Shown here piece by piece: positions 23,812-34,502 of a DNA stretch of 64,000 nucleotides; the first letter of the stretch is position 1; each line of letters opens with the position of its first letter. Where the stretch lies: NCBI RefSeq assembly GCF_023091245.1, contig NZ_JAHWXN010000001.1, positions 2,888,579 through 2,952,578 of the forward strand, in the 5' to 3' direction. The notes under the pieces are model-generated. The model was not told the origin of the DNA and made no database searches. It saw only the letters and a program-made list of their open reading frames with translations. Source of the DNA: Microbacterium croceum (GTDB taxonomy: Bacteria > Actinomycetota > Actinomycetes > Actinomycetales > Microbacteriaceae). Position numbers and translations under genes: made by a program.

Positions 23812-24651
23812 ATGGGGATCGGGCTCGATGCGGTGACCGCGCTCTCTCCGACGGGCGACTTCCGCGCCGGAGAGGTGCTGCGGCTGCGCCGTGAGATCAG
23901 CCGCATGCAGCGCCGCCGCAGTGACGATGCGCTGCTCCCCCTCGACCCCGCATTCGCCTCGCTGCTGCCGGAGGAGGGGCTGGTGACCGGCACCGCATAC
24001 ACCGTCACGCCCTCGCCGAGCCTGGTGCTCGCCCTGCTCAGCGCGGCCTCCCGCAAGGGGCACTGGAGCGCGGTCGTCGGCATGCCGACCCTGGGCGTGG
24101 AGGCCGCAGCCGCCTTCGGCATCGACCTCTCCCGGCTGATCCTCGTCCCCGACCCCGCCGACCGTTGGCTCGCCGCGACCTCGGCCCTCGCCGAGGTCAT
24201 CCCCCTGATCGTCGTCCATCCGGCGAGCCGCGCGCGCGATGCCGACATCTCGCGTCTGAGCGCGCGTCTGCGCGACCGCGGATGCACGCTGCTGGTCGCC
24301 GCCTCCTCCGCCGGCGAATGGCCGCAGAGCGAGGGCTCGATCCACATCGACGACCCGCACTGGCATGGCCTCGGTGCCGGCTGGGGGCTGCTCTCCGACT
24401 GCACCGTCACGGTGACCGCCCGCACCAGGCGCGCCCCGATGCCCTCTCGCGTGCAGGTGCGCCTCCCCGGCAACCGCGGCCTGGTGGAGCCGTTGAGCGT
24501 CGATGTGTCGAGTTCCGAGCGGCGAGGCCCCGAGCTCACCGCTCTGCCCTCCCTGCCCTCCTTGCCCTCCTTGCCCTCCTTGCCCTCCGAAGCCTCCCCA
24601 CGGAACACCGCTCCCGACCACGAGCTCTCCTTCTGGGCGGAGGCCGGATGA
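23812..24651 (+). CDS. imuA: ImuA-like protein of the SOS mutasome
   Basis: A protein of 279 residues, the first gene of the LexA-controlled operon. The start ATG 23812 has GAGGA seven bases upstream. The N-terminus is helical and basic (VLRLRREISRMQRRRSDD), and the central part looks like a degenerate RecA fold without a Walker A motif (LALLSAASRKGHWSAVVGMPTLGVEAA; LLVAASSAGEWP). The C-terminus carries a five-unit Leu-Pro-Ser repeat encoded by 9-base repeats and ends in LSFWAEAG. ImuA partners ImuB and DnaE2 in damage-induced mutagenesis. The mycobacterial ImuA' is distinct, so the name rests mostly on position. Confidence 0.78.
   Translation: MGIGLDAVTALSPTGDFRAGEVLRLRREISRMQRRRSDDALLPLDPAFASLLPEEGLVTGTAYTVTPSPSLVLALLSAASRKGHWSAVVGMPTLGVEAAAAFGIDLSRLILVPDPADRWLAATSALAEVIPLIVVHPASRARDADISRLSARLRDRGCTLLVAASSAGEWPQSEGSIHIDDPHWHGLGAGWGLLSDCTVTVTARTRRAPMPSRVQVRLPGNRGLVEPLSVDVSSSERRGPELTALPSLPSLPSLPSLPSEASPRNTAPDHELSFWAEAG
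24544..24588 (+). repeat. Five tandem 9-base repeats in imuA
   Basis: Units read CTGCCCTCC (twice) then TTGCCCTCC (three times) and encode Leu-Pro-Ser five times. Copy-number changes would keep the frame. Confidence 0.85.
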
Positions 24652-26186
24652 ACGCCCCGCTCCGCGTCCTCGTGCTGTGGTTCCCGGACTGGCCGCTGCG
24701 CGCCGCACTCGGTGGGCCGCCGCCGCACCCGCCCACTGCGCTGGTGCAGGCGAACACCGTCGTGGCCTGTACGGCCTCGGCGCGGGAGCACGGCGTGCGC
24801 TCGGGGCAACGTCGACGCGTCGCCCAGGGACATCTGTCCTCCCTGCAGGTGCTCCCCCACGATGCCGCGCGGGACGAGCGTGCCTTCCTCCCTGTGCTGC
24901 AGCTCATCGAGAAGCACGCGCCAGGGGTCGCCCAGCTCCGACCCGGACTGGCCGTGCTGCGCGCCAGAGGGATCTCCCGTTATCACGGCGGAGAGGCCGC
25001 GGCGGCGGATGCCCTCGCCGCTGTCCTCACGGAGGCCGGCCTGCCCGAAGTCCGCATCGGCGTCGCGGACGGCCCCTTCACCGCCGAGATCGCCGCCAGA
25101 GGGCCTCGCCCTCGCACGGTCGTCCCCGCGGGGCTGTCGAAGGACTTCCTGGCCCCCTACCCCGTGCAGGTGCTGCGAGACGAGCAGATCCCCGACCTCC
25201 TGATCAGACTGGGCGTACGCACGCTCGGCGAGTTCACGGCGCTCCCCGCGATCGAGGTGCGCGACCGCTTCGGCGAGCGCGGAGCCCGCCTGCATGCCCT
25301 CGCGGCCGGCGCGGATTCCCAGCCTCTGGTCCCGCGCCCGCCCGACCCCGAGCTGGTGCGCAGCGTGGAGTTCGAGACCCCTCTGGCCGGAGCCGACCAG
25401 GTGGCCTTCGCCGTGCGACAGACCGCCGACGGGGTGCTGGTGGCCCTGGGCGAGGCGTCGCTCGTGTGCACCGAGGTCCGGATCGATCTGACCGACGACA
25501 ACGGACTGGTGTTCTCCCGCACCTGGCTGCACCCCACCTGCTTCGACGCCTCCGATCTGGTCGACCGCATCCGGTGGCAGCTCGAGGCCCTGGCTGCGCA
25601 GAACGCGAAGGATCCGGTCGACGAGGCGCGGGCGTTCGGCGGCATCTCCGCCGTGCGCATCGTGCCGGTGGCGGTGGACGACGCGGCGCATCATCAGCCG
25701 GGCCTGTTCGGCTCCGGCACCGATGAGCGCCTGCACCATGCCGTCTCGCGGGTGCAGACGATGCTCGGTCACGAGGGAGTGGTCACCGCCGCGCTCTCAG
25801 GAGGGCGGTGGCTCGCCGACCGGCAGGTGCTCACTCCATGGGGCGAGCGCCCGGTCGCCCCCCGCGATCCCACTCGTCCCTGGCCGGGGAGCCTGCCCGA
25901 TCCGCTGCCGGCTGAGGTGTTCCGTCCGCCCCGCCCCATCGGAGTGGACGCGGCAGACGGCAGCACGATCAGCGTCGATGAACGCGGGGCGCTGTCCGCC
26001 GCCCCGGCACGGATCAACGGGAGCGTCGTGCAGGGGTGGGCGGGCCCCTGGCCGATCCATGAGCACCGGTGGACGGCGGGCGGAGGCAAGAAAGGGCATC
26101 GGCTGCAGATCGTCGATGACCGCAACCGCGCCTGGCTGGTGTTCTGCACCGGCGAGCGCTGGTGGGCTGAGGGGAGGTATCGCTGA
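24648..26186 (+). CDS. imuB: ImuB, Y-family polymerase-like protein
   Basis: A protein of 512 residues starting at ATG 24648, overlapping the imuA stop (ATGA). It has the Y-family layout: LRVLVLWFPDWPLRAAL at the N-terminus, the palm region LRPGLAVLRARGISRYHGG, a thumb (LIRLGVRTLGEFTALP) and a little finger domain, then a C-terminal tail ending GERWWAEGRYR. The usual catalytic acidic residues of Y-family polymerases are not evident (first motif reads VLWFPDWP; the SXDE motif is replaced by RARGISRYH), consistent with ImuB being a non-catalytic hub that bridges DnaE2 and the beta clamp. The candidate clamp motif is QPGLFG near residue 350. Confidence 0.9.
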   Translation: MNAPLRVLVLWFPDWPLRAALGGPPPHPPTALVQANTVVACTASAREHGVRSGQRRRVAQGHLSSLQVLPHDAARDERAFLPVLQLIEKHAPGVAQLRPGLAVLRARGISRYHGGEAAAADALAAVLTEAGLPEVRIGVADGPFTAEIAARGPRPRTVVPAGLSKDFLAPYPVQVLRDEQIPDLLIRLGVRTLGEFTALPAIEVRDRFGERGARLHALAAGADSQPLVPRPPDPELVRSVEFETPLAGADQVAFAVRQTADGVLVALGEASLVCTEVRIDLTDDNGLVFSRTWLHPTCFDASDLVDRIRWQLEALAAQNAKDPVDEARAFGGISAVRIVPVAVDDAAHHQPGLFGSGTDERLHHAVSRVQTMLGHEGVVTAALSGGRWLADRQVLTPWGERPVAPRDPTRPWPGSLPDPLPAEVFRPPRPIGVDAADGSTISVDERGALSAAPARINGSVVQGWAGPWPIHEHRWTAGGGKKGHRLQIVDDRNRAWLVFCTGERWWAEGRYR

Positions 26187-29100
26187 TGGGCTGGCACAAT
26201 CCACCGCTGTCCTGGAACGAGCTGGAACGCACGCTCAGTGGAGAGGAGCCCCCTGCGCACCCGACTGTCGCCGAGCCCCGAGGAGCGCGCGCCGACCCCG
26301 GGCCGGTGAGCCGAAGACGACAGCGGACCCCACCCGCACCCATCCCCCGCCCCGCGGATGCTGTGCCCTACGCCGAGCTGCACGCGCACTCCTCCTACTC
26401 CTTCCTCGACGGCGCCTCATCGCCGGAGGAGCTTCTGGCCGAGGCTGAACGGCTCGGCCTCACGGCTCTGGCACTCACGGATCACGACGGCTTCTACGGG
26501 GCTGCCCGCTTCGCCGAGGTCGCCGATCTGATGGAGGCACCGTTGCAGACCGTGTTCGGCGCCGAGCTCTCACTCGAACTGCCCGCTCCGCAGCGGGGCA
26601 CCCCCGATCCGCTGGGCGACCACCTGTTGGTCCTCGCCCGTGGGATGGAGGGGTATCACCGGCTGTCCGGGGCCATCACCACCGCCCAGCTGCGCGGCGG
26701 CGAGAAGGGGCGCCCCGTCTACGACCTCGACGAGCTCGCGGCGAGCGCAGGTGGAGAGTGGACGATCCTCACCGGATGCCGCAAAGGCAGCGTGCGACGG
26801 GGACTGGAGAACGGCGATGCCGAGACTCCTCTCCGGCTGCTCGTCGACCTGTTCGGCGCCGACCACGTCGCCGTCGAGCTCTTCGACCACGGCGACCCGC
26901 AGGACAGCAGCCGCAACGACGCCCTCGCCGAGCTCGCCACCCGGATGCGTCTGCCGGTGGTGGCGACCAACAACGTGCACTATGCGACGCCGGCCCGCGC
27001 CCCGCTGGCCGAGGCCGTCGCCGCGGTGCGGGCGGTGCGCAGCATGGACGATCTCGACGGCTGGCTCCCCGCGCACGGCGGCGCCCATCTGCGCAGCGGC
27101 GCGGAGATGACGGCCCGCTTCCGGCGGTACCCCGGAGCGATCTCCTACGGCCTCGAGCTGGCTGCCGCATCGGCCTTCCCCTTGCGCAGGGCCCGACCGG
27201 CTCTCCCGCAGCAGGAGGTACCGGAGGGGCACACGCCGATGAGCTGGCTGCGCTCCCTGGTCTGGGAGGCCGTGCCCACGAAATACCCGCGGCTGGATGA
27301 CGACGGGCGGCGCCGCATCGGCCGCGAGCTCGACGTCATCGAGGAGAAGGACTTCCCCGGCTACTTCCTCATCGTGCACGACATCGTGGCGGAGGCGCGG
27401 CGCCGCGGCATCCTCTGCCAGGGGCGCGGGTCGGCCGCGGCGAGCGCCGTCTGCTATCTGCTGGGCATCACCGCCGTGGATCCGATCCTCTACAAGCTCC
27501 CCTTCGAGCGTTTCCTCGCGACCACCCGGCAGGAGGAACCGGACATCGACGTGGACTTCGACTCCCGGCGGCGCGAGGAGATCATCCAGTGGGTCTACGG
27601 CCGATACGGGCGCGAACGGGCGGCGCAGGTCGCGAACGTCATCCAATACCGCCCGAAGAACGCCGTGCGCGACATGGCCAGGGCTCTCGGCTTCTCCCCC
27701 GGCCAGCAGGACGCGTGGTCGCGGCAGGTGGACGGCTGGAGCACGGGGCTGGAGGTCGCGGAGGAGCATGACATCCCTGCGAACGTGATCGAGTACGCCG
27801 GCGAGCTGTTGAAGGCCCCCCGCCATCTCGGTATCCACTCCGGGGGGATGGTGCTCACCGCCCGCCCCGTCGGCGAGGTGGTGCCGGTGGAGCATGCCCG
27901 GATGGAGGATCGCACGGTCATCCAATGGGACAAGGACGACGCGGCGTGGATGGGACTGGTGAAGTTCGACCTGCTGGGGCTGGGGATGCTCGCCGCCCTG
28001 CAGCACTGCTTCGACCTGATCCACGAGGCCACGGGTGAGCGGTGGACCCTGGAGACCATCCCGAAGGAGGAGCCGGCCGTCTACGACATGCTCTGCCGTG
28101 CGGACTCGATCGGGGTGTTCCAGGTGGAGTCCCGTGCCCAGATCGGTCTGCTCCCCCGTCTGCAGCCGCGGAGCTTCTACGACCTCACGATCCAGATCGC
28201 CCTGATCCGGCCCGGTCCCATCCAGGGCGGGGCCGTGCACCCCTTCGTGCGTCGCAAGATGGCGAAGGACCGCAACGATGAGGAGAACCGGGAACGGGTG
28301 GCACGCGGTGAGAAGCCGGTGGACTTCACGATTCCCTACCCGCACCCCGACCTGGAAGACATCCTGAAGCGGACGCTGGGCATCCCGATCTTCCAGGAGC
28401 AGCTGATCCAGATGGCGACCGCCGTGGGTGACTGCACGGCCGACGAGGCCGATCTGCTGCGACGGGCGATGGGCTCCAAGCGCGGCCTCGAGAAGATCGA
28501 GAAGGTCAAGGCGAAGCTCTACGCCGGCATGACCAGGCGCGGCCTGATCGGTGACGATGCCGATCGCATCTACGCGCAGATCCAGGCGTTCGCGAACTTC
28601 GGCTTCGCCGAGTCGCACTCGCTGTCGTTCGCGCTGCTGGTCTATGCCAGTTCCTGGGTGAAGCTGCACTACCCCGGGGTGTTCCTGGCCGGGCTCCTGC
28701 GCTCCCAGCCGATGGGCTTCTACTCGGCGGCGACGCTCACCGCCGATGCGCGGCGCCACGGCGTGGAGGTGCGGCGCCCCGATCTGCAGGCCTCGGGGGC
28801 GACCGAGACGATGGAACCGCTCACCGCGACCACACCGCGCACTCCCACCGGTCTCGACTCCTGCCTCGCGGATCCGCAGCCGCCCACGCTGCGCTTCCAC
28901 AGGGACGCCCCCGACGAGGCCGCGGCTCACCGCAGAGACGGTGGATATGCCGTGCGTCTGGGACTCGGCGGGGTACGCGGGATCGGTGCCCCTCTGGCCG
29001 AGCGGATCGTCGCCGAGCGCGAGGAGAACGGCCCCTACCGCGACCTGCATGATCTGGTGCGGCGCACGGACGCCACTGCCGCACAGTTGGAGGCACTCGC

Positions 29101-29650
29101 CACCGCCGGCGCCTTCGCATGTCTGGGACTGGAGCGACGGGAGGCGATCTGGCTCGCGGGCGCCGCCGCCGAGGACCGCGCCCGATTCCTGCCGGGCACG
29201 ACGGTGTCGGTACAGCCGCCGCTGTTCTCCGATCAGACCAGCTACGAGCAGCTCTCGGCCGACCTCTGGGCGACCGGCGTCTCCACCGACGACCATCCGA
29301 TGGCGCACTTCCGCTCGGCGCTGACGGAGCGAGGGGTGCTCACGGCGCTGGATCTGCAGAAGCATGAGGTGGGTCGCCGCATCGAGGTCGCCGGACTCGT
29401 CACCCACCGTCAACGTCCGGCGACGGCGGCCGGCGTCACCTTCGTGAACCTCGAGGATGAGAGCGGTCTGGTCAACGTCGTCTGCTCGACAGGTGTGTGG
29501 AATCGCTATCGCCGGGTCGCGCGTGATTCCCCCGCGCTGATCATCCGCGGCATCCTGGAGCGCTCACCCGAAGGCGTGGTGAACGTGCTGGCCGATGCCT
29601 TCGAAGACCTGCGCACGGGGCTGACGCATCGCTCTCGGGACTTCCGGTGA
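26186..29650 (+). CDS. dnaE2: Error-prone DNA polymerase III alpha subunit
   Basis: A polymerase of 1154 residues, the catalytic subunit of translesion synthesis. ATG 26186 overlaps the imuB stop (TGATG). The N-terminal PHP domain (YAELHAHSSYSFLDGASSPEEL, LALTDHDGFYG) lies at about residues 65-100. The polymerase core includes EEPDIDVDFDSRRREE with the catalytic acidic residues, and FANFGFAESHSLSFA. Helix-hairpin-helix and OB-fold parts follow (GGVRGIGAPLAERI; GLVTHRQRPATAAGVTFVNLEDE). Its length is typical of DnaE2. The LexA box upstream makes SOS induction likely. Confidence 0.95.
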   Translation: MGWHNPPLSWNELERTLSGEEPPAHPTVAEPRGARADPGPVSRRRQRTPPAPIPRPADAVPYAELHAHSSYSFLDGASSPEELLAEAERLGLTALALTDHDGFYGAARFAEVADLMEAPLQTVFGAELSLELPAPQRGTPDPLGDHLLVLARGMEGYHRLSGAITTAQLRGGEKGRPVYDLDELAASAGGEWTILTGCRKGSVRRGLENGDAETPLRLLVDLFGADHVAVELFDHGDPQDSSRNDALAELATRMRLPVVATNNVHYATPARAPLAEAVAAVRAVRSMDDLDGWLPAHGGAHLRSGAEMTARFRRYPGAISYGLELAAASAFPLRRARPALPQQEVPEGHTPMSWLRSLVWEAVPTKYPRLDDDGRRRIGRELDVIEEKDFPGYFLIVHDIVAEARRRGILCQGRGSAAASAVCYLLGITAVDPILYKLPFERFLATTRQEEPDIDVDFDSRRREEIIQWVYGRYGRERAAQVANVIQYRPKNAVRDMARALGFSPGQQDAWSRQVDGWSTGLEVAEEHDIPANVIEYAGELLKAPRHLGIHSGGMVLTARPVGEVVPVEHARMEDRTVIQWDKDDAAWMGLVKFDLLGLGMLAALQHCFDLIHEATGERWTLETIPKEEPAVYDMLCRADSIGVFQVESRAQIGLLPRLQPRSFYDLTIQIALIRPGPIQGGAVHPFVRRKMAKDRNDEENRERVARGEKPVDFTIPYPHPDLEDILKRTLGIPIFQEQLIQMATAVGDCTADEADLLRRAMGSKRGLEKIEKVKAKLYAGMTRRGLIGDDADRIYAQIQAFANFGFAESHSLSFALLVYASSWVKLHYPGVFLAGLLRSQPMGFYSAATLTADARRHGVEVRRPDLQASGATETMEPLTATTPRTPTGLDSCLADPQPPTLRFHRDAPDEAAAHRRDGGYAVRLGLGGVRGIGAPLAERIVAEREENGPYRDLHDLVRRTDATAAQLEALATAGAFACLGLERREAIWLAGAAAEDRARFLPGTTVSVQPPLFSDQTSYEQLSADLWATGVSTDDHPMAHFRSALTERGVLTALDLQKHEVGRRIEVAGLVTHRQRPATAAGVTFVNLEDESGLVNVVCSTGVWNRYRRVARDSPALIIRGILERSPEGVVNVLADAFEDLRTGLTHRSRDFR

Positions 29651-29658
29651 GCAGAGGG

Positions 29659-30042
29659 TCACCAGAACCGTTCCGGCTCCTCCGCCGGCGGCCGGTCGAC
29701 CCCACCCCACCGATCGGCCTCGGCCTTCGCCGCATCCGCTGCCGCATCAGCTCCCCGCAGCGCCACCGTCGATCCCACCGCACCGGGGCCGACGGGATCG
29801 ACGGTGAGGATCGTACGTGCAACGCGGGCTTCGACGATCACGGTGCACTCGAGCACCCGGCCGAGCCAGCGCGCGAGATCGCCCAGAGGCTCCTCCGCGC
29901 GACGGTAGAGGATGCCCGTGTCCAGATCGAGCAGCGACACGAGCACCGGTGCCTGCGTGAGCGGATCGGTCTGCTCGGTCACCTCGACCCGATGTCCGGA
30001 AGGGATGGCGACCTGCGCGGTCCACACGAGCGTTCTGTCCAT
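29659..30042 (-). CDS. Hypothetical protein
   Basis: A protein of 127 residues with no recognised domain. It contains beta-strand-like stretches (LVWTAQVAIPSGHRVEVTEQ; VLVSLLDLDTGILYRR; CTVIVEARVARTILTVDPVG) and an Ala-rich C-terminus ending EEPERFW. It has no signal peptide or membrane helix. ATG 30042 has AAGGTGGAG three bases upstream, which supports the start. It converges on dnaE2 with only eight bases between, without a visible terminator. Function not assigned. Confidence 0.7.
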   Translation of the reverse strand: MDRTLVWTAQVAIPSGHRVEVTEQTDPLTQAPVLVSLLDLDTGILYRRAEEPLGDLARWLGRVLECTVIVEARVARTILTVDPVGPGAVGSTVALRGADAAADAAKAEADRWGGVDRPPAEEPERFW

Positions 30043-30430
30043 GTCTCCACCTTAGGAACGTGGGCCGTCGAGGAGAACACCCAGTGTGATGAACAGATTT
30101 CTCAGAAATTTTTGTCCCCCAAATGGCGGACATGAAGAAATCGCGATACTCTGCTATGCGTAGCGGGGGCTACAGGCTGAGACCTGGGGAATCAGCCGAC
30201 GAGAGCAGCGAGATCTTCGCCGCCTCCCCTACCGTCCGGGTTGGGCGGTGCGCCCTCTCGAGCTCACGTCTGGGGCGGAGACTCGAGAGGGCAAATCCCC
30301 GCCGTCTCGTCCTCGTCGATCGCCGATCCGCGCGGTCCGGCGTCGCGCCGGCGCCTCTTCGTACCCGGGCATGAAGAGGGAGACGAAAAAAGAGGAACAC
30401 GAAGTTCCTCCACTTTCAGGATATCTCCGA
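30043..30430. other. Long noncoding stretch upstream of helR
   Basis: I see no supportable gene on either strand over about 390 bases. The left end is AT-rich (ATTTCT and AGAAAT palindrome around 30091-30103) and could hold the promoter of the leftward hypothetical gene. The middle has a perfect 11-base inverted repeat at 30252-30292. The right part is GC-rich and ordinary in look. A short open frame from 30123 (83 residues, Arg/Ser-rich) has no ribosome site and is not credited. Confidence 0.5.
30252..30292. repeat. Inverted repeat / hairpin in helR upstream region
   Basis: Arms GCCCTCTCGAG and CTCGAGAGGGC are perfect complements with a 19-base spacer. It may be an operator or an RNA stem. 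It is about 140 bases upstream of the RAE-like element. Confidence 0.5.
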
Positions 30431-30457
30431 CAGGGGGGCTTGCCACAAGGCCCCCTG
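30431..30457. promoter_or_regulatory. Rifamycin-associated element (RAE)-like inverted repeat
   Basis: The core GGGGCTTGCCACAAGGCCCC (30435-30454) matches what I recall of the RAE, a short inverted repeat upstream of rifamycin-inducible genes in actinobacteria. The arms extend to 12 bases (CAGGGGGGCTTG and CAAGGCCCCCTG) with one mismatch. TTGCCA inside it (30440-30445) could serve as the -35 region, with CAGGAT at 30465-30470 as a possible -10 (19-base spacing). The helR start is 59 bases downstream of the repeat. The identity is from memory and should be compared with the published consensus. Confidence 0.75.
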
Positions 30458-30516
30458 CATGGGGCAGGATCGATCCTCGCTCATGCCGCCAACGCCTGAG
30501 CGCGAAGGAGACTCCC

Positions 30517-32661
30517 ATGCCCACGACTCCCCTCGACCCGTTCCACCTCCCACCCTCGTCGCGCGGCAAGAGCGCGTCCGTCCTCATCGATGCCGACCGC
30601 GCGCACTTCCTGCGCATCGCCCATGCTCTGCAGAGTCAGCGCGAAGAGACCGAGTCCCGCCTCAGCGCCGCCAGACAGACACATGCCGGCACCGGCGGTA
30701 CCGCCGTCGACCGCGATCTGGAGATCCGCAGACTGAGCGGTCGCCTGCGACTGCTCGACAGATTCGGCCTCGACCTCTGCCTGGGTCGGATGACGCCGAG
30801 CGACGGCAGCACCCCGCTCTACATCGGCCGCTCGGGTCTCGCCGCCGATGACGGCTCCCGACTCCTGGTCGACTGGCGCACCCCCGCGGCCGAGCCGTAC
30901 TTCGCCGCAACGATGGCGGACCCGCGCGGTTTCTCCTCGCGGCGCCGGTACCGCTGGAGCGACGGACGCATCACCGACTACTGGGACGAGGCACTCACCC
31001 CTGAAGGACTCAGCGACACGGATGCCCTCGACGACCAGTCCGCCTTCATCGCCAGCCTGGGCTTCGATCGCTCGGCGCGCATGCGCGACGTGCTGTCGAC
31101 GATCCAGGCCGATCAGGATGCGATCATCCGCACACCATCGCGAGGAACTCTGGTCGTCGACGGCGGACCGGGCACAGGCAAGACGGTCGTCGCCCTGCAT
31201 CGCGCGGCACACCTGCTCTACGCCGAACCGCGCCTCACGCACGGCGGGGGTGGAATGCTGCTCGTCGGCCCGAACGCGCACTACCTCTCCTACGTCGAGG
31301 ACGTGCTGCCGAGCCTCGGCGAGGACAGCGTCCGACTGAGCACGCTGCGCGACCTCGTGCCGGAGGGGCGAGACGCCGTCGCCGAGAAGGTCCCCCGTGT
31401 CGCACACCTCAAGGCGACGCTCGATCCCGTCGCGATGATCGATGCCGCGGCCGCCGTGCACGAACGACCTCCCCAGCGCGCCCTGCGGCTGGAGTCCCCC
31501 TGGGCGGATCTGTGGCTCGGCCGCGAGGAATGGGCCGAGGCCTTCTCCGCCGCCGACACCTCCTCCGCTCACAACGACGCGCGCGATGAGGTGTGGGAGG
31601 AGCTGCTGGAGACGCTCTCCGATCAGATCGACGACGACGACGCCCCTCCGCACGCGGTCAGGCGGTGGCTGCGGCAGGATGAGGAGCTCACGGGGACGTT
31701 CGTGCGCGCCTGGCCATTGCTCTCGCCGGCATCGATCGTCCGCCGCTTCTGGAGCGACCCCGACTTCCTCGCACGCTGCGCCCCGTCTCTCACCGCCGAG
31801 GAGATCGCCATCCTGCAGCGCGAGACGCACGAGGCCTGGACCGTGGCCGACCTCCCCTTCCTCGACGCCGCACGCCGACGGATCGGCGACCCGGAAGCGA
31901 CACGGGCAGAACATCGTCGCCAGGCGGTGATCGCCTCGGCCCAGGATCAGATGTCGCACGTCGTCGACCACCTCATCGAGGACGACGACAGCGAGATGAA
32001 GGTCATGTCGATCCTGAAGGGACAGGACGCTCGGAATGTGCTCACCGGCGTCGATACCCCTCCGCTCTCCCCTCCCGACGAGCTCGCGGGCCCGTTCGCA
32101 CACATCGTGATCGACGAGGCCCAGGAGCTGAGCGACGCGGAATGGCGGATGCTGTTGGCGCGCTGCCCCTCGCGGAGCCTGACCATCGTGGGCGATCGCG
32201 CGCAGACACGGCACGGCTTCACCCAGAGCTGGGCGGAGCGCCTGGAGCGGGTCGGCATCCGCGAGGTGCGGGTCGCGCATCTGGGAGTGAACTACCGGAC
32301 CCCGGTGGAGGTCATGACCGTGGCCGCACCCGTGATCCGGGCGGCGATCCCCGACGCGAACGTGCCCCGATCGGTGCGGGAGAGCGGCATCCCGGTGCGG
32401 GAGGCGACGACGACGGGGCTCGAGGGAATCCTCGACGACTGGCTCGCCACGCACGCGCAGGGCATCGCCTGCGTGATCGGCGCCCCCTCGTTCACCCCCA
32501 CGGCGCGTGTACGCGCACTGACGCCCGAGGGGGCGAAGGGACTCGAATTCGACCTCGTGATACTCGTGGATCCCGAGCAGTTCGGCGACGGCGTCACCGG
32601 TGCCGTCGACCGCTACGTGGCGATGACCCGCGCCACGCAGGAGCTCGTCATCCTCCACTGA
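30517..32661 (+). CDS. helR: HelR/HelD-type RNA polymerase recycling ATPase
   Basis: An UvrD/Rep-like P-loop ATPase of 714 residues. ATG 30517 has GAAGGAG five to six bases upstream. An N-terminal coiled-coil segment (LRIAHALQSQREETESRLSAARQ), then an RNA polymerase-interacting region (RSGLAADDGSRLLVDWRTPAAEPYF), precede the Walker A GGPGTGKTVVALHRAAHLL (about residue 213) and Walker B VIDEAQELSD (about 531). QTRHGFTQSW and a C-terminal motif AMTRATQELVILH fit helicase motifs. HelR in Streptomyces displaces rifamycin from RNA polymerase and confers tolerance. The RAE-like repeat upstream strongly supports HelR rather than general HelD. Confidence 0.9.
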   Translation: MPTTPLDPFHLPPSSRGKSASVLIDADRAHFLRIAHALQSQREETESRLSAARQTHAGTGGTAVDRDLEIRRLSGRLRLLDRFGLDLCLGRMTPSDGSTPLYIGRSGLAADDGSRLLVDWRTPAAEPYFAATMADPRGFSSRRRYRWSDGRITDYWDEALTPEGLSDTDALDDQSAFIASLGFDRSARMRDVLSTIQADQDAIIRTPSRGTLVVDGGPGTGKTVVALHRAAHLLYAEPRLTHGGGGMLLVGPNAHYLSYVEDVLPSLGEDSVRLSTLRDLVPEGRDAVAEKVPRVAHLKATLDPVAMIDAAAAVHERPPQRALRLESPWADLWLGREEWAEAFSAADTSSAHNDARDEVWEELLETLSDQIDDDDAPPHAVRRWLRQDEELTGTFVRAWPLLSPASIVRRFWSDPDFLARCAPSLTAEEIAILQRETHEAWTVADLPFLDAARRRIGDPEATRAEHRRQAVIASAQDQMSHVVDHLIEDDDSEMKVMSILKGQDARNVLTGVDTPPLSPPDELAGPFAHIVIDEAQELSDAEWRMLLARCPSRSLTIVGDRAQTRHGFTQSWAERLERVGIREVRVAHLGVNYRTPVEVMTVAAPVIRAAIPDANVPRSVRESGIPVREATTTGLEGILDDWLATHAQGIACVIGAPSFTPTARVRALTPEGAKGLEFDLVILVDPEQFGDGVTGAVDRYVAMTRATQELVILH

Positions 32662-32667
32662 GACGGC

Positions 32668-33264
32668 TCAGGCCGTGCGCGCGGCGAGCCCCAGCTGGGC
32701 GAGAGCGGCACGCGCGTGGCGCCTCGCTGTGGCGTCGGAGGGCGCCGGGGCGAGCCCGAGCAGTCGCTGACGATGCGGCTCTCCGAGAAGCAGTGCGAAC
32801 AGCGCCGAGGCCATGGCATCGTGGCCCTCCGGTATCCGCTCTCGGAGGGCGGAGATGTACGCGCGCGGGCCTTCGTCGTAGAAGCGTCGGGCGAGCTCGG
32901 GGAAAGCCTCCGCCTCGATGATCATCAGTCGGTGCAGGGCGATCGCCTCATCGGAGTGCAGGGCTCGCACCATCATGACGGCCAGCTCCTCCAGGCTGCC
33001 ATCGGCGCCGCCGCGGTGCACCGTGCGGTCGCGCAGCCGCTCGACACTCGCCAGGAAGATCTCGGTGCGATCACCGAAGTACGCGTAGATCGTGCGCTTG
33101 GTCACATGCGCCTCACCGGCGATGTCGTCGAGCGTCACCTGATGGAACCCGCGCGCAGCGAACAGTTGCACCGCGACATCGAGGATGTCGTCTCTCCGCT
33201 GCGTCCGCTCCGCCTCGGTCGGCCTCCCCCGCTTCCGTGGTGTCTGCGCGCGCTCCGCCGCCAT
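32668..33264 (-). CDS. TetR-family regulator of the adjacent dehydrogenase operon
   Basis: A TetR regulator of 198 residues. The N-terminal HTH (DVAVQLFAARGFHQVTLDDIAGEAHVTKRTIYAYFGDR, about residues 30-68) is canonical. The C-terminal domain is helical and its ligand is unknown. It is divergent from the E1 alpha gene with a 25-base inverted repeat between them, overlapping a TATAAT hexamer, so autoregulation and repression of the operon are probable. Its 3' end faces helR, with six bases between, and no terminator is visible. Confidence 0.9.
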   Translation of the reverse strand: MAAERAQTPRKRGRPTEAERTQRRDDILDVAVQLFAARGFHQVTLDDIAGEAHVTKRTIYAYFGDRTEIFLASVERLRDRTVHRGGADGSLEELAVMMVRALHSDEAIALHRLMIIEAEAFPELARRFYDEGPRAYISALRERIPEGHDAMASALFALLLGEPHRQRLLGLAPAPSDATARRHARAALAQLGLAARTA

Positions 33265-33301
33265 GTTGCCCCCTCGTGGATCGCTTTCGTTTCCCCCATC
33301 C

Positions 33302-33307
33302 TATAAT
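33302..33307 (+). promoter_or_regulatory. -10 hexamer for the 2-oxoacid dehydrogenase operon
   Basis: A consensus TATAAT, rare in this GC-rich sequence. The -35 region is weak. The divergent tetR promoter must lie close by, in the same 140-base gap. It overlaps the operator. Confidence 0.6.
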
Positions 33308-33328
33308 GAGACGCGAGTCGTATCATTA
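33304..33328. promoter_or_regulatory. TetR operator between tetR and the E1 alpha gene
   Basis: Arms TAATGAGACG and CGTATCATTA match at nine of ten positions with a five-base centre CGAGT. It overlaps the TATAAT -10. The position suggests occlusion of RNA polymerase by the adjacent TetR protein. Confidence 0.75.
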
Positions 33329-33404
33329 ATGCTGCGCCGCGAACCGGTGCGGCAGCGCCCGCCCACCCTGCGGTGCGCAGATCCATCGGACGAGAGGAAC
33401 CCGC

Positions 33405-34502
33405 ATGTCCGCGAAAGCCCGAGCTCCCCGCACCTCCACGCGCGCCCCGTCGGAGTCGCTCTCTGACGGACTGTCGCGGGAGTTCTACCAGCGGATGGTG
33501 ATGATCCGCAGATTCGAGGAACGTGCCGCCCGCGCATACGCCGAGGCGAAGGTGGGCGGCTACTGCCACCTGAATCTCGGCGAGGAGGCGACGGTGGTCG
33601 GAGTCATGGGGGCACTGGACGAGAACGACTACGTCTACACGAACTATCGGGAGCATGGCTATGCACTCGCTCGCGGCATCGCGCCCGAGCGCATCATGGC
33701 CGAGCTCTACGGCCGCACCGATGGGGTCTCCAAGGGCTGGGGCGGGTCGATGCACATGTTCGACGTCGCCAGCCGGTTCATGGGCGGCTACGGCATCGTC
33801 GGCGGTCAGGTACCGCTGGCGACCGGCACCGCGCTGGCGATCGACTACCGCGGCGGCACCGAGGCCGTCGTCTGCGTGATGGGCGACGGCACGACGAACA
33901 TCGGCGCCTTTCACGAATCCCTCAACATCGCGGCGCTCTGGGGTCTGCCGATCGTCTACGTGGTGAACAACAACGGACTGGGCATGGGCACCACCGTCGA
34001 GCAGTCCTCCGCCGAACCGGAGCTGTACCGGCGGGCGGCGTCGTACCGGATGCCATCGGCGCGCGTCGACGGCAACGATCCGGCAGCGGTGCACGCGGCG
34101 ATGCGGATCGCGCTCTCCCGCGCTCGCGCCGGCACCCCGTATCTCCTGGAGACGATGACCGGTCGCCTGAAGGGCCACTCGGTCGTGGACCCCGCCCGCT
34201 ACCGCAGCGCAGACGACACCGCGCGTGTGCGCGCCGGCGACCCGGTCGCCGCCTTCGCCGCACGCCTCCTCGAGCGCGGCGTGCTGACGGAGGGCAGGAT
34301 CGCCGAGATCGACGCGGAGGAGACCGCTCGCGCCACCGCGGCCGCGGCGTTCGCCGAGGCGAGTCCGCATCCCGATGTGTCGACGCTGTTCGACTTCACG
34401 TACGCCACGACCGTGGCGAACGACTCCCGCCGCCTTCCCGGAGAAGCCTTGTTCCCTGCCGCACCCCGTCCGACCATCGCCCTCACGGAGGTGCCGGCAT
34501 GA
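33405..34502 (+). CDS. 2-oxoacid dehydrogenase E1 component, alpha subunit (PdhA/AcoA type)
   Basis: A thiamine diphosphate-dependent subunit of 365 residues. The ThDP motif is GDGTTNIGAFHESLNIAALW (GDG near residue 158), followed by IVYVVNNNGLGMGT. The phosphorylation-type loop region has KGHSVVDPARYR. The start ATG 33405 has GAGAGGA eight bases upstream. Substrate could be pyruvate, acetoin or branched 2-oxoacids. Actinobacteria normally use a homodimeric AceE for pyruvate, so this heterotetrameric type suggests a specialised role such as acetoin. It is the first of three genes in the operon. Confidence 0.9.
   Translation: MSAKARAPRTSTRAPSESLSDGLSREFYQRMVMIRRFEERAARAYAEAKVGGYCHLNLGEEATVVGVMGALDENDYVYTNYREHGYALARGIAPERIMAELYGRTDGVSKGWGGSMHMFDVASRFMGGYGIVGGQVPLATGTALAIDYRGGTEAVVCVMGDGTTNIGAFHESLNIAALWGLPIVYVVNNNGLGMGTTVEQSSAEPELYRRAASYRMPSARVDGNDPAAVHAAMRIALSRARAGTPYLLETMTGRLKGHSVVDPARYRSADDTARVRAGDPVAAFAARLLERGVLTEGRIAEIDAEETARATAAAAFAEASPHPDVSTLFDFTYATTVANDSRRLPGEALFPAAPRPTIALTEVPA

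Follow-up and report, generated by a model that had tools for sequence, protein, structure and literature searches.

How a cell might sense a rifamycin through a short palindrome in its DNA is the question raised by a locus of Microbacterium croceum, in which an inverted repeat of the rifamycin-associated element (RAE) type precedes helR, the gene of an RNA polymerase recycling ATPase. The locus lies within the window analyzed here, a stretch of 64,000 nucleotides (nt) from contig NZ_JAHWXN010000001.1. Actinobacterial rifamycin sensing through the RAE was called unresolved in a 2026 paper (PMC12802891). Our alignments indicate that the RAE is almost certainly the center of a rigid, mirror-symmetric divergent promoter signature. 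The initial annotation, which had suggested that the element may itself be the helR promoter, did not include its mirror image on the opposite strand, a promoter signature whose position is equally conserved.

A mirror-symmetric pair of promoter signatures at the RAE

The RAE consensus used here, GGGnCTTGC-n-GCAAGnCCC, was derived from our own alignments. Judged against it, the window element (GGGGCTTGC-C-ACAAGGCCC) forms the 19-bp inverted repeat with a single departure, A in place of G (index 10, counting from 0), which recurs in a fraction of 0.07 of the genus elements. The arms of the repeat (30431–30442 and 30446–30457) are 92% complementary. The distance to the helR ATG (30517) is 59 bases from the repeat end, as first reported, and 62 from the end of the 20-mer core, which puts the element within the promoter region of a gene that confers rifamycin protection. 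When up to 3 mismatches were allowed, the RAE pattern matched the window twice, at this same site and once per strand (0.18 matches expected), and without mismatch it occurs once in the whole 3.68 Mb genome, again at this site. Four further genome matches were listed, all with 3 mismatches, one of them being this site on the opposite strand. Thus, the claim of an RAE-like repeat upstream of a HelR gene stands. An RNA element at the site was considered and rejected, as no Rfam family was found at E values up to 1 in 29000–34000; at the gathering score, the Rfam search of the whole window returned tRNA only. A perfect 11-bp inverted repeat with a 19-nt loop (GCCCTCTCGAG, 30252–30292), located in the same intergenic region, is also without an Rfam match.

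Two sets of elements were compared. The genus set, an ungapped alignment on the RAE, comprises 84 elements including that of the window (73 helR, 8 monooxygenase and 3 major facilitator superfamily (MFS) elements), and the class set comprises 144 distinct RAEs (116 from a named scan and 28 from further class genomes) chosen by RAE sequence only. The search patterns specified RAE letters and never the −10 hexamers. Within the genus, the distance between TTG and a NANNNT hexamer is exactly 19 nt on the sense side in 83/84 elements, on the antisense side in 83/84 and on both sides in 82/84; other spacers gave counts of 0–5 at 10–24 nt and of up to 9 (antisense) and 17 (sense) at 25–26 nt. The assignment of TTGCCA as −35 and CAGGAT (30465–30470) as −10 is borne out by this conserved 19-nt geometry. 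That the element is itself promoter-like also agrees with the overlap between the RAE and the −35 of promoter 2 published for mycobacteria (PMC10719064). In the class set the hexamer was found at 19 nt on 285/288 sides, with both sides in 141/144 elements, and at no more than 30/288 for other spacers of 8–30 nt, save for 25 nt, where the hexamer stands on 88/288 sides (2/144 elements on both), apparently as the discriminator GAGAGT that follows the antisense −10. Removal of the 5 elements common to the genus set left 275/278 sides and 136/139 elements with both. Among 30 mycobacterial matches, which were oriented by the −10 itself, 28 carry both signatures, each of the 28 with one T-first and one C-first hexamer.

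The −35 regions of the two signatures overlap by 3 bp, and the predicted starts lie 66 bp apart. It is improbable that the left signature represents a sense promoter in reverse. Read in the antisense direction, the left hexamer matches TATAAT more closely than in the sense direction in 82/84 genus elements, equally well in 2 and less closely in none, and a TTG is located 15–21 nt upstream of its sense reading in 0/84 (at 14 nt, in 2/84). Moreover, no sense TTG..TANNNT promoter was found within 60 nt upstream of the 84 genus, 142 class and 28 mycobacterial elements, the last set excluding L285 and L290, which are one-mismatch matches with neither −10. Rows dropped elsewhere were L024 (a false RAE pick), 7 matches at locus ends and two elements sharing a locus (144 to 142 class elements). 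The orientation reference 'mfs2' is a wrong reading frame that was used for orientation only, and most of its rows were taken as HelR from match lengths.

The two signatures differ in the first base of the −10. Because the profile that oriented 47 of the 142 class elements includes the −10s, differences between sense and antisense are quoted for the 95 gene-oriented elements, in which this base is T on the antisense side in 94/95 and C on the sense side in 85/95 (T in 0/95). All 142 class elements gave antisense T in 139 and sense C in 129, and the genus gave antisense T in 70/84 (with G in the other 14) and sense C in 79/84 (T in 0/84). The plus-strand base at the predicted antisense start is C at a frequency of 0.97 in the class and 0.99 in the genus. 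It belongs to a conserved C pair opposite this start, and the antisense RNA would open with GG in 81/95 class and 54/84 genus elements. The sense spacer holds a further inverted repeat (GCCCCctgcatGGGGC in the window), which was dropped because the genus keeps just G26, G27 and G29 of it, with positions 21–25 and 28 hardly conserved. The coordinates of the features are collected in Table 1.

Table 1. Features of the helR locus in the window; promoter elements and transcript starts are predicted.
Feature	Coordinates	Strand	Basis
RAE core, GGGGCTTGCCACAAGGCCCC	30435–30454	.	Sequence and genome pattern search
19-bp palindrome inside the RAE core	30435–30453 (center 30444)		Palindrome length as in PMC10719064
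Sense −35, TTGCCA	30440–30445	+	NANNNT 19 nt downstream in 83/84 genus elements
Sense −10, CAGGAT	30465–30470	+	19-nt spacer; first base C
Sense start region, helR mRNA	30476–30478	+	Putative; 6–8 nt past the −10, mirrors the antisense +1
Antisense −35, TTGTGG	30443–30448	−	NANNNT 19 nt away in 83/84 genus elements
Antisense −10, TATCCT	30423–30418	−	19-nt spacer; conservation
Antisense transcript start, 5'-GG	30411	−	Putative; plus-strand C conserved; terminator stem begins here
Terminator-like hairpin from the predicted +1 with U-run, GGAGGAACUUCGUGUUCCUCUUUUUU	30386–30411	−	Sole such site in 30040–30560
Shine-Dalgarno-like GAAGGAG of helR	30504–30510	+	Sequence
helR, RNA polymerase recycling ATPase HelR, 714 aa	30517–32661	+	NF041254, 1104.8 bits; 6yxu_H alignment

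The putative antisense transcript

The antisense, leftward promoter is likely to be active, and its conservation is not tied to a gene on that side. Enough upstream DNA was available at 80 gene-oriented class loci; the upstream gene points rightward in 43 of these, so that a leftward transcript would have no gene to serve, and 42 of the 43 retain the antisense TANNNT. Among loci whose upstream gene points rightward, it is present in 64/66 once the profile-oriented ones are added. At 18/124 class loci a leftward gene begins no more than 150 nt away, gene directions having been called by codon composition alone and elements with less than 1300 nt upstream left out (124/142 kept). Two class elements, G399:C525:28865-28917 and G390:C138:50189-50241, carry TANNNT on either side, in which they differ from the sense promoters of the oriented elements, and they possibly serve two divergent genes. 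At a locus of Mycobacterium asiaticum (L169), the RAE lies between helR and an open reading frame on the opposite side, 177 nt away, that matches the MFS reference.

In the window, a terminator-like stem (30411–30391, minus strand) followed by a U-run begins exactly at the predicted antisense start, with a hairpin energy of −11.4 kcal/mol (z −2.73). Since 0.4 such sites are expected by chance in 30040–30560, where one was found, its significance lies in the coincidence of its place with the antisense start. The antisense RNA starts had more favorable fold z values than the sense starts in the class (−1.14 vs +0.32) and in the genus (−0.79 vs −0.34). Perfect Watson-Crick stems beginning at the start and at least 7 bp long were found in 45/137 class and 16/84 genus antisense RNAs, compared with means of 10.5 (maximum 18.1) and 2.0 (maximum 5.1), respectively, in 50 partner swaps; a looser control that allowed G-U pairs and one mismatch separated weakly (117/221 with stems of at least 7 bp, against 44% of partner-swapped and 17% of displaced RNAs). 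The hairpin was rejected as a defining part of the element: it occurs in a minority of relatives and is therefore supporting.

A proposed polymerase-sensing alarm and its rivals

In Bacillus subtilis, the drug stalls RNA polymerase on the busier, antisense member of two convergent promoters, whereby the sense promoter is freed (PMC12802891). Like this helD/pps dual-promoter alarm, the RAE presents a sense and an antisense promoter signature before a HelD gene; both antisense promoters in B. subtilis have 19-bp spacers, as does the signature here, and the sense promoter is the weaker one, by measurement there and presumably, from its −10, here. At the sequence level, the RAE holds both signatures, and these are asymmetric. 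However, the B. subtilis promoters are convergent and do not overlap sterically, whereas the RAE signatures diverge and share the −35, and therefore the published collision step cannot apply. The bidirectional promoters of Escherichia coli (PMC12825309) resemble the RAE in that one symmetric sequence could engage polymerase in two mutually exclusive orientations, but they share the −10 and their starts are mostly 18 bp apart, in contrast to the shared −35 and the 66 bp found here.

We put the probability that the RAE works as a rifamycin alarm of two back-to-back promoters, in which RNA polymerase is the sensor, at roughly 0.48, a little short of even. In such an alarm the rightward promoter, with its non-consensus first −10 base C, would make the helR mRNA, while the leftward promoter, with the better −10, would in the window make an RNA of ~26 nt that is terminated at once. 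In drug-free cells the leftward promoter would occupy the shared −35 with RNA polymerase and keep helR low. Upon exposure to a rifamycin, the few drug-bound polymerases would stall mostly on the busier leftward promoter and silence it for long. A stalled polymerase may release the −35, as the 19-bp spacer is the optimum plus 2 bp and the starts lie 66 bp apart; a drug-free polymerase could then fire rightward from the freed −35, HelR would be made and polymerases would be freed in turn. We infer the transcription and the drug response, as well as the greater strength of the left promoter, its repression of the right one and their co-occupancy. That the leftward promoter is the drug-sensing part is a slightly more tentative proposal than the alarm as a whole, and a partial release of the −35 through the 66-bp start distance and the 19-bp spacers is conceivable.

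The alarm was explored in a steady-state kinetic model with assumed rates over a grid of parameters. When the sense promoter was made usable beside a drug-stalled antisense polymerase, the model gave up to 31-fold induction at 1% drug-bound polymerase. With the same model, mere competition for the shared −35 was rejected as a full mechanism.

Several points weigh against the alarm. Under strict exclusion the model reached a maximum of 0.9997-fold and never induction, because the drug takes polymerase off both promoters, and the 31-fold value depends on the assumption that the sense promoter is usable. A deletion in B. subtilis that forced the promoters into steric conflict abolished induction (PMC12802891), a sense P1 start has been mapped ~20 bp upstream of the RAE in Mycobacterium smegmatis (PMC10719064), and five E. 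coli bidirectional promoters have a basal activity too low for competition (PMC12825309). Within the sequences themselves, a standard promoter scan, covering spacers of 16–18 nt only, found no promoter in 30040–30560, the first antisense −10 base is G and not T in 14/84 genus elements, the GG start is present in just 54/84, and the hairpin is missing at most genus loci. Finally, the G/C tracts that flank the core are kept though a −35 needs none, which points to an additional DNA-binding reader. Among 99 distinct pattern rows (the first part of the pattern list together with a few odd-looking rows, some 50 listed rows being left out), the left tract is GGG in 90 and has at least 2 G in 97, and the right tract has at least 2 C in 99. 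This conservation is the best argument that an additional DNA-binding protein may act at the RAE.

Such a protein could be a homodimeric regulator that covers both −35s on the RAE palindrome and silences both promoters until a rifamycin or a stalled-polymerase signal releases it, in which case the symmetry would be that of an operator and the antisense promoter merely co-regulated. This alternative is a serious one, if on balance doubtful. It would account for tracts flanking CTTG..CAAG that are conserved like the −10s, for an arm-to-arm distance that is constant throughout the alignments (but was also prescribed by the search patterns) and for a palindrome center near −33 of both predicted starts, a repressor-like position, and it agrees with the published view of an as yet unnamed RIF (rifampicin)-responsive factor (PMC12802891; PMC10719064). 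However, it leaves unexplained why the antisense signature is kept at nearly all gene-oriented loci with no divergent gene (42/43). The tracts could also be read by a factor that contacts sigma region 4, such as a WhiB-like protein, and that recognizes GGGnC upstream of the −35 to activate one or both promoters under rifamycin. WhiB7 contacts sigma region 4 at AT-rich sites. Each RAE arm has the form GGGnC-TTGC, with the box directly 5' of the −35, and the 19-bp spacers and the C at the first sense −10 base resemble activator-dependent promoters, but such a factor would not account for the constant spacing of the arms, and we regard it as unlikely. Least probable, and by our estimate very improbable, is an element that works in the sense direction only, with tandem promoters P1 and P2 as in mycobacteria and the left −10 being the P1 −10 on the wrong strand: P1 and P2 starts have been mapped in M. 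smegmatis without drug (PMC10719064) and in most elements the left hexamer can be read as CANNNT in the sense direction, but the antisense fit of this hexamer and the want of an upstream sense promoter argue against it and the 19-nt mirror spacing would be left unexplained.

Distribution of the RAE, its genes and the possible meaning of its symmetry

The gene behind the window RAE is helR, as first annotated: its product matches the curated NCBIfam model motor_HelR (NF041254) over its full length (positions 1–706 of 706; 1104.8 bits, cut-off 750) and aligns to the HelD structure of M. smegmatis (PDB 6yxu_H; E 2.3e-99). As in this class II HelD of the same family, an acidic stretch, EDDDSE (HelR residues 488–493), is located where the PCh loop sits, with DDD facing D482/D483/E484 of 6yxu_H, an assignment made from sequence alone with hand-counted numbering. 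By contrast, Gln490 of M. smegmatis HelD faces Met here, in our reading of the alignment.

HelR of this clade was found in 81 of 198 sampled genus genomes by a hand count from the match table (the automatic tally, 92, also counts weak matches and paralogs), and the earlier suggestion of rifamycin tolerance intrinsic to this genus is hence not supported in that form. An RAE is present at 75 of the 81 helR loci: 73 carry it before helR, and to these are added G154, in which it precedes an MFS-helR gene pair (L075), and G079, in which it is at a contig end. No RAE was found in ~600 bp upstream of the other six helR genes (G043, G057, G103, G148, G175 and G195), the regulation of which may differ. 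Eleven genus RAEs away from helR were examined, of which 8 precede flavin adenine dinucleotide (FAD) monooxygenase genes (L065–L072) and 3 precede genes of DHA2-type MFS transporters (L073–L075), one of these being followed by helR (L075). Three of the monooxygenases were scanned and scored 755–796 bits with the rifampin monooxygenase model NF033145, just below its cut-off of 800. The MFS proteins match TIGR00711 above cut-off in L074 and L075 and below it in the short L073, and they may be rifamycin exporters.

In the class, the exact RAE pattern occurs in 157/394 genomes and 52/137 genera (reversed control at least 3 genomes, among the matches listed), and a pattern that names only both −10s and CTTG-NNN-CAAG in 193/394 genomes and 59/137 genera (reversed control at least 4, among the matches listed). 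Genes behind class RAEs include rph (L119 and L150) and arr (L131, NF033144), all above the NCBIfam cut-offs, and an Rgt-like glycosyltransferase gene (L125; 532 bits vs a cut-off of 800). L144 (Microbacterium sufflavum) and L012 (genome G160 of the genus set) carry an identical element. A sample of the phylum gave matches to the pattern of −10s and CTTG-NNN-CAAG in 39/246 genomes, of which 16 belong to the class and 23 do not (reversed control at least 3, among the matches listed). By eye, 12 of the 23 have clear G/C tracts, 3 are doubtful and 8 have none; the last, mostly AT-rich, are probably chance matches. The palindrome center is free in some of the outside-class elements (CTTGATTCAAG, CTTGTTTCAAG). 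RAE-like two-promoter elements with a variable palindrome center are seen in other classes of the phylum in G856, G895, G799 and G887.

Upstream of helR in the window lie an error-prone DNA polymerase gene (NF004225, above cut-off) and a second gene with weak DNA polymerase IV matches, which we take to be dnaE2 and imuB. These genes span 24165–29650, and the polymerase gene adjoins helR in L007, L008, L015 and, partly, L010. A TetR gene (32668–33264) lies downstream; considered as the gene of an RAE regulator, it was set aside, as a scan of 30 helR loci of the genus, with as much as 1.5 kb of DNA behind the gene, found it next to helR only in the window (L006), L008 and L022 (32% identity).

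The published RAE shares with the element described here the 19-bp palindrome, the overlap with the sense −35 and the gene families helR, rph, rgt, arr and rifampin monooxygenase, but in the accessible text it is described with a factor-binding palindrome and sense promoters only, whereas here it is the center of a divergent signature. Among the titles and abstract openings listed in our literature search, none concerned a divergent or antisense promoter at an RAE; as the coverage mostly excludes subscription papers and preprints, this does not prove novelty. The divergent architecture offers a reading of the RAE palindrome that needs no postulated factor as its starting point, and it underlies a tract-free search pattern that recovers the RAE in more genomes of the class than the exact pattern and in other classes of the phylum. 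It predicts that the antisense transcript starts at one base and that the response is lost with a drug-insensitive polymerase and changed when one −10 is destroyed. With more reserve than for the alarm itself, we suggest that no drug-binding regulator may act at the RAE, that polymerase may be the rifamycin sensor in Actinomycetota, with an antisense promoter that would exist only for the drug to stall it, and that Firmicutes and Actinomycetota may have arrived at two geometries of one dual-promoter alarm.

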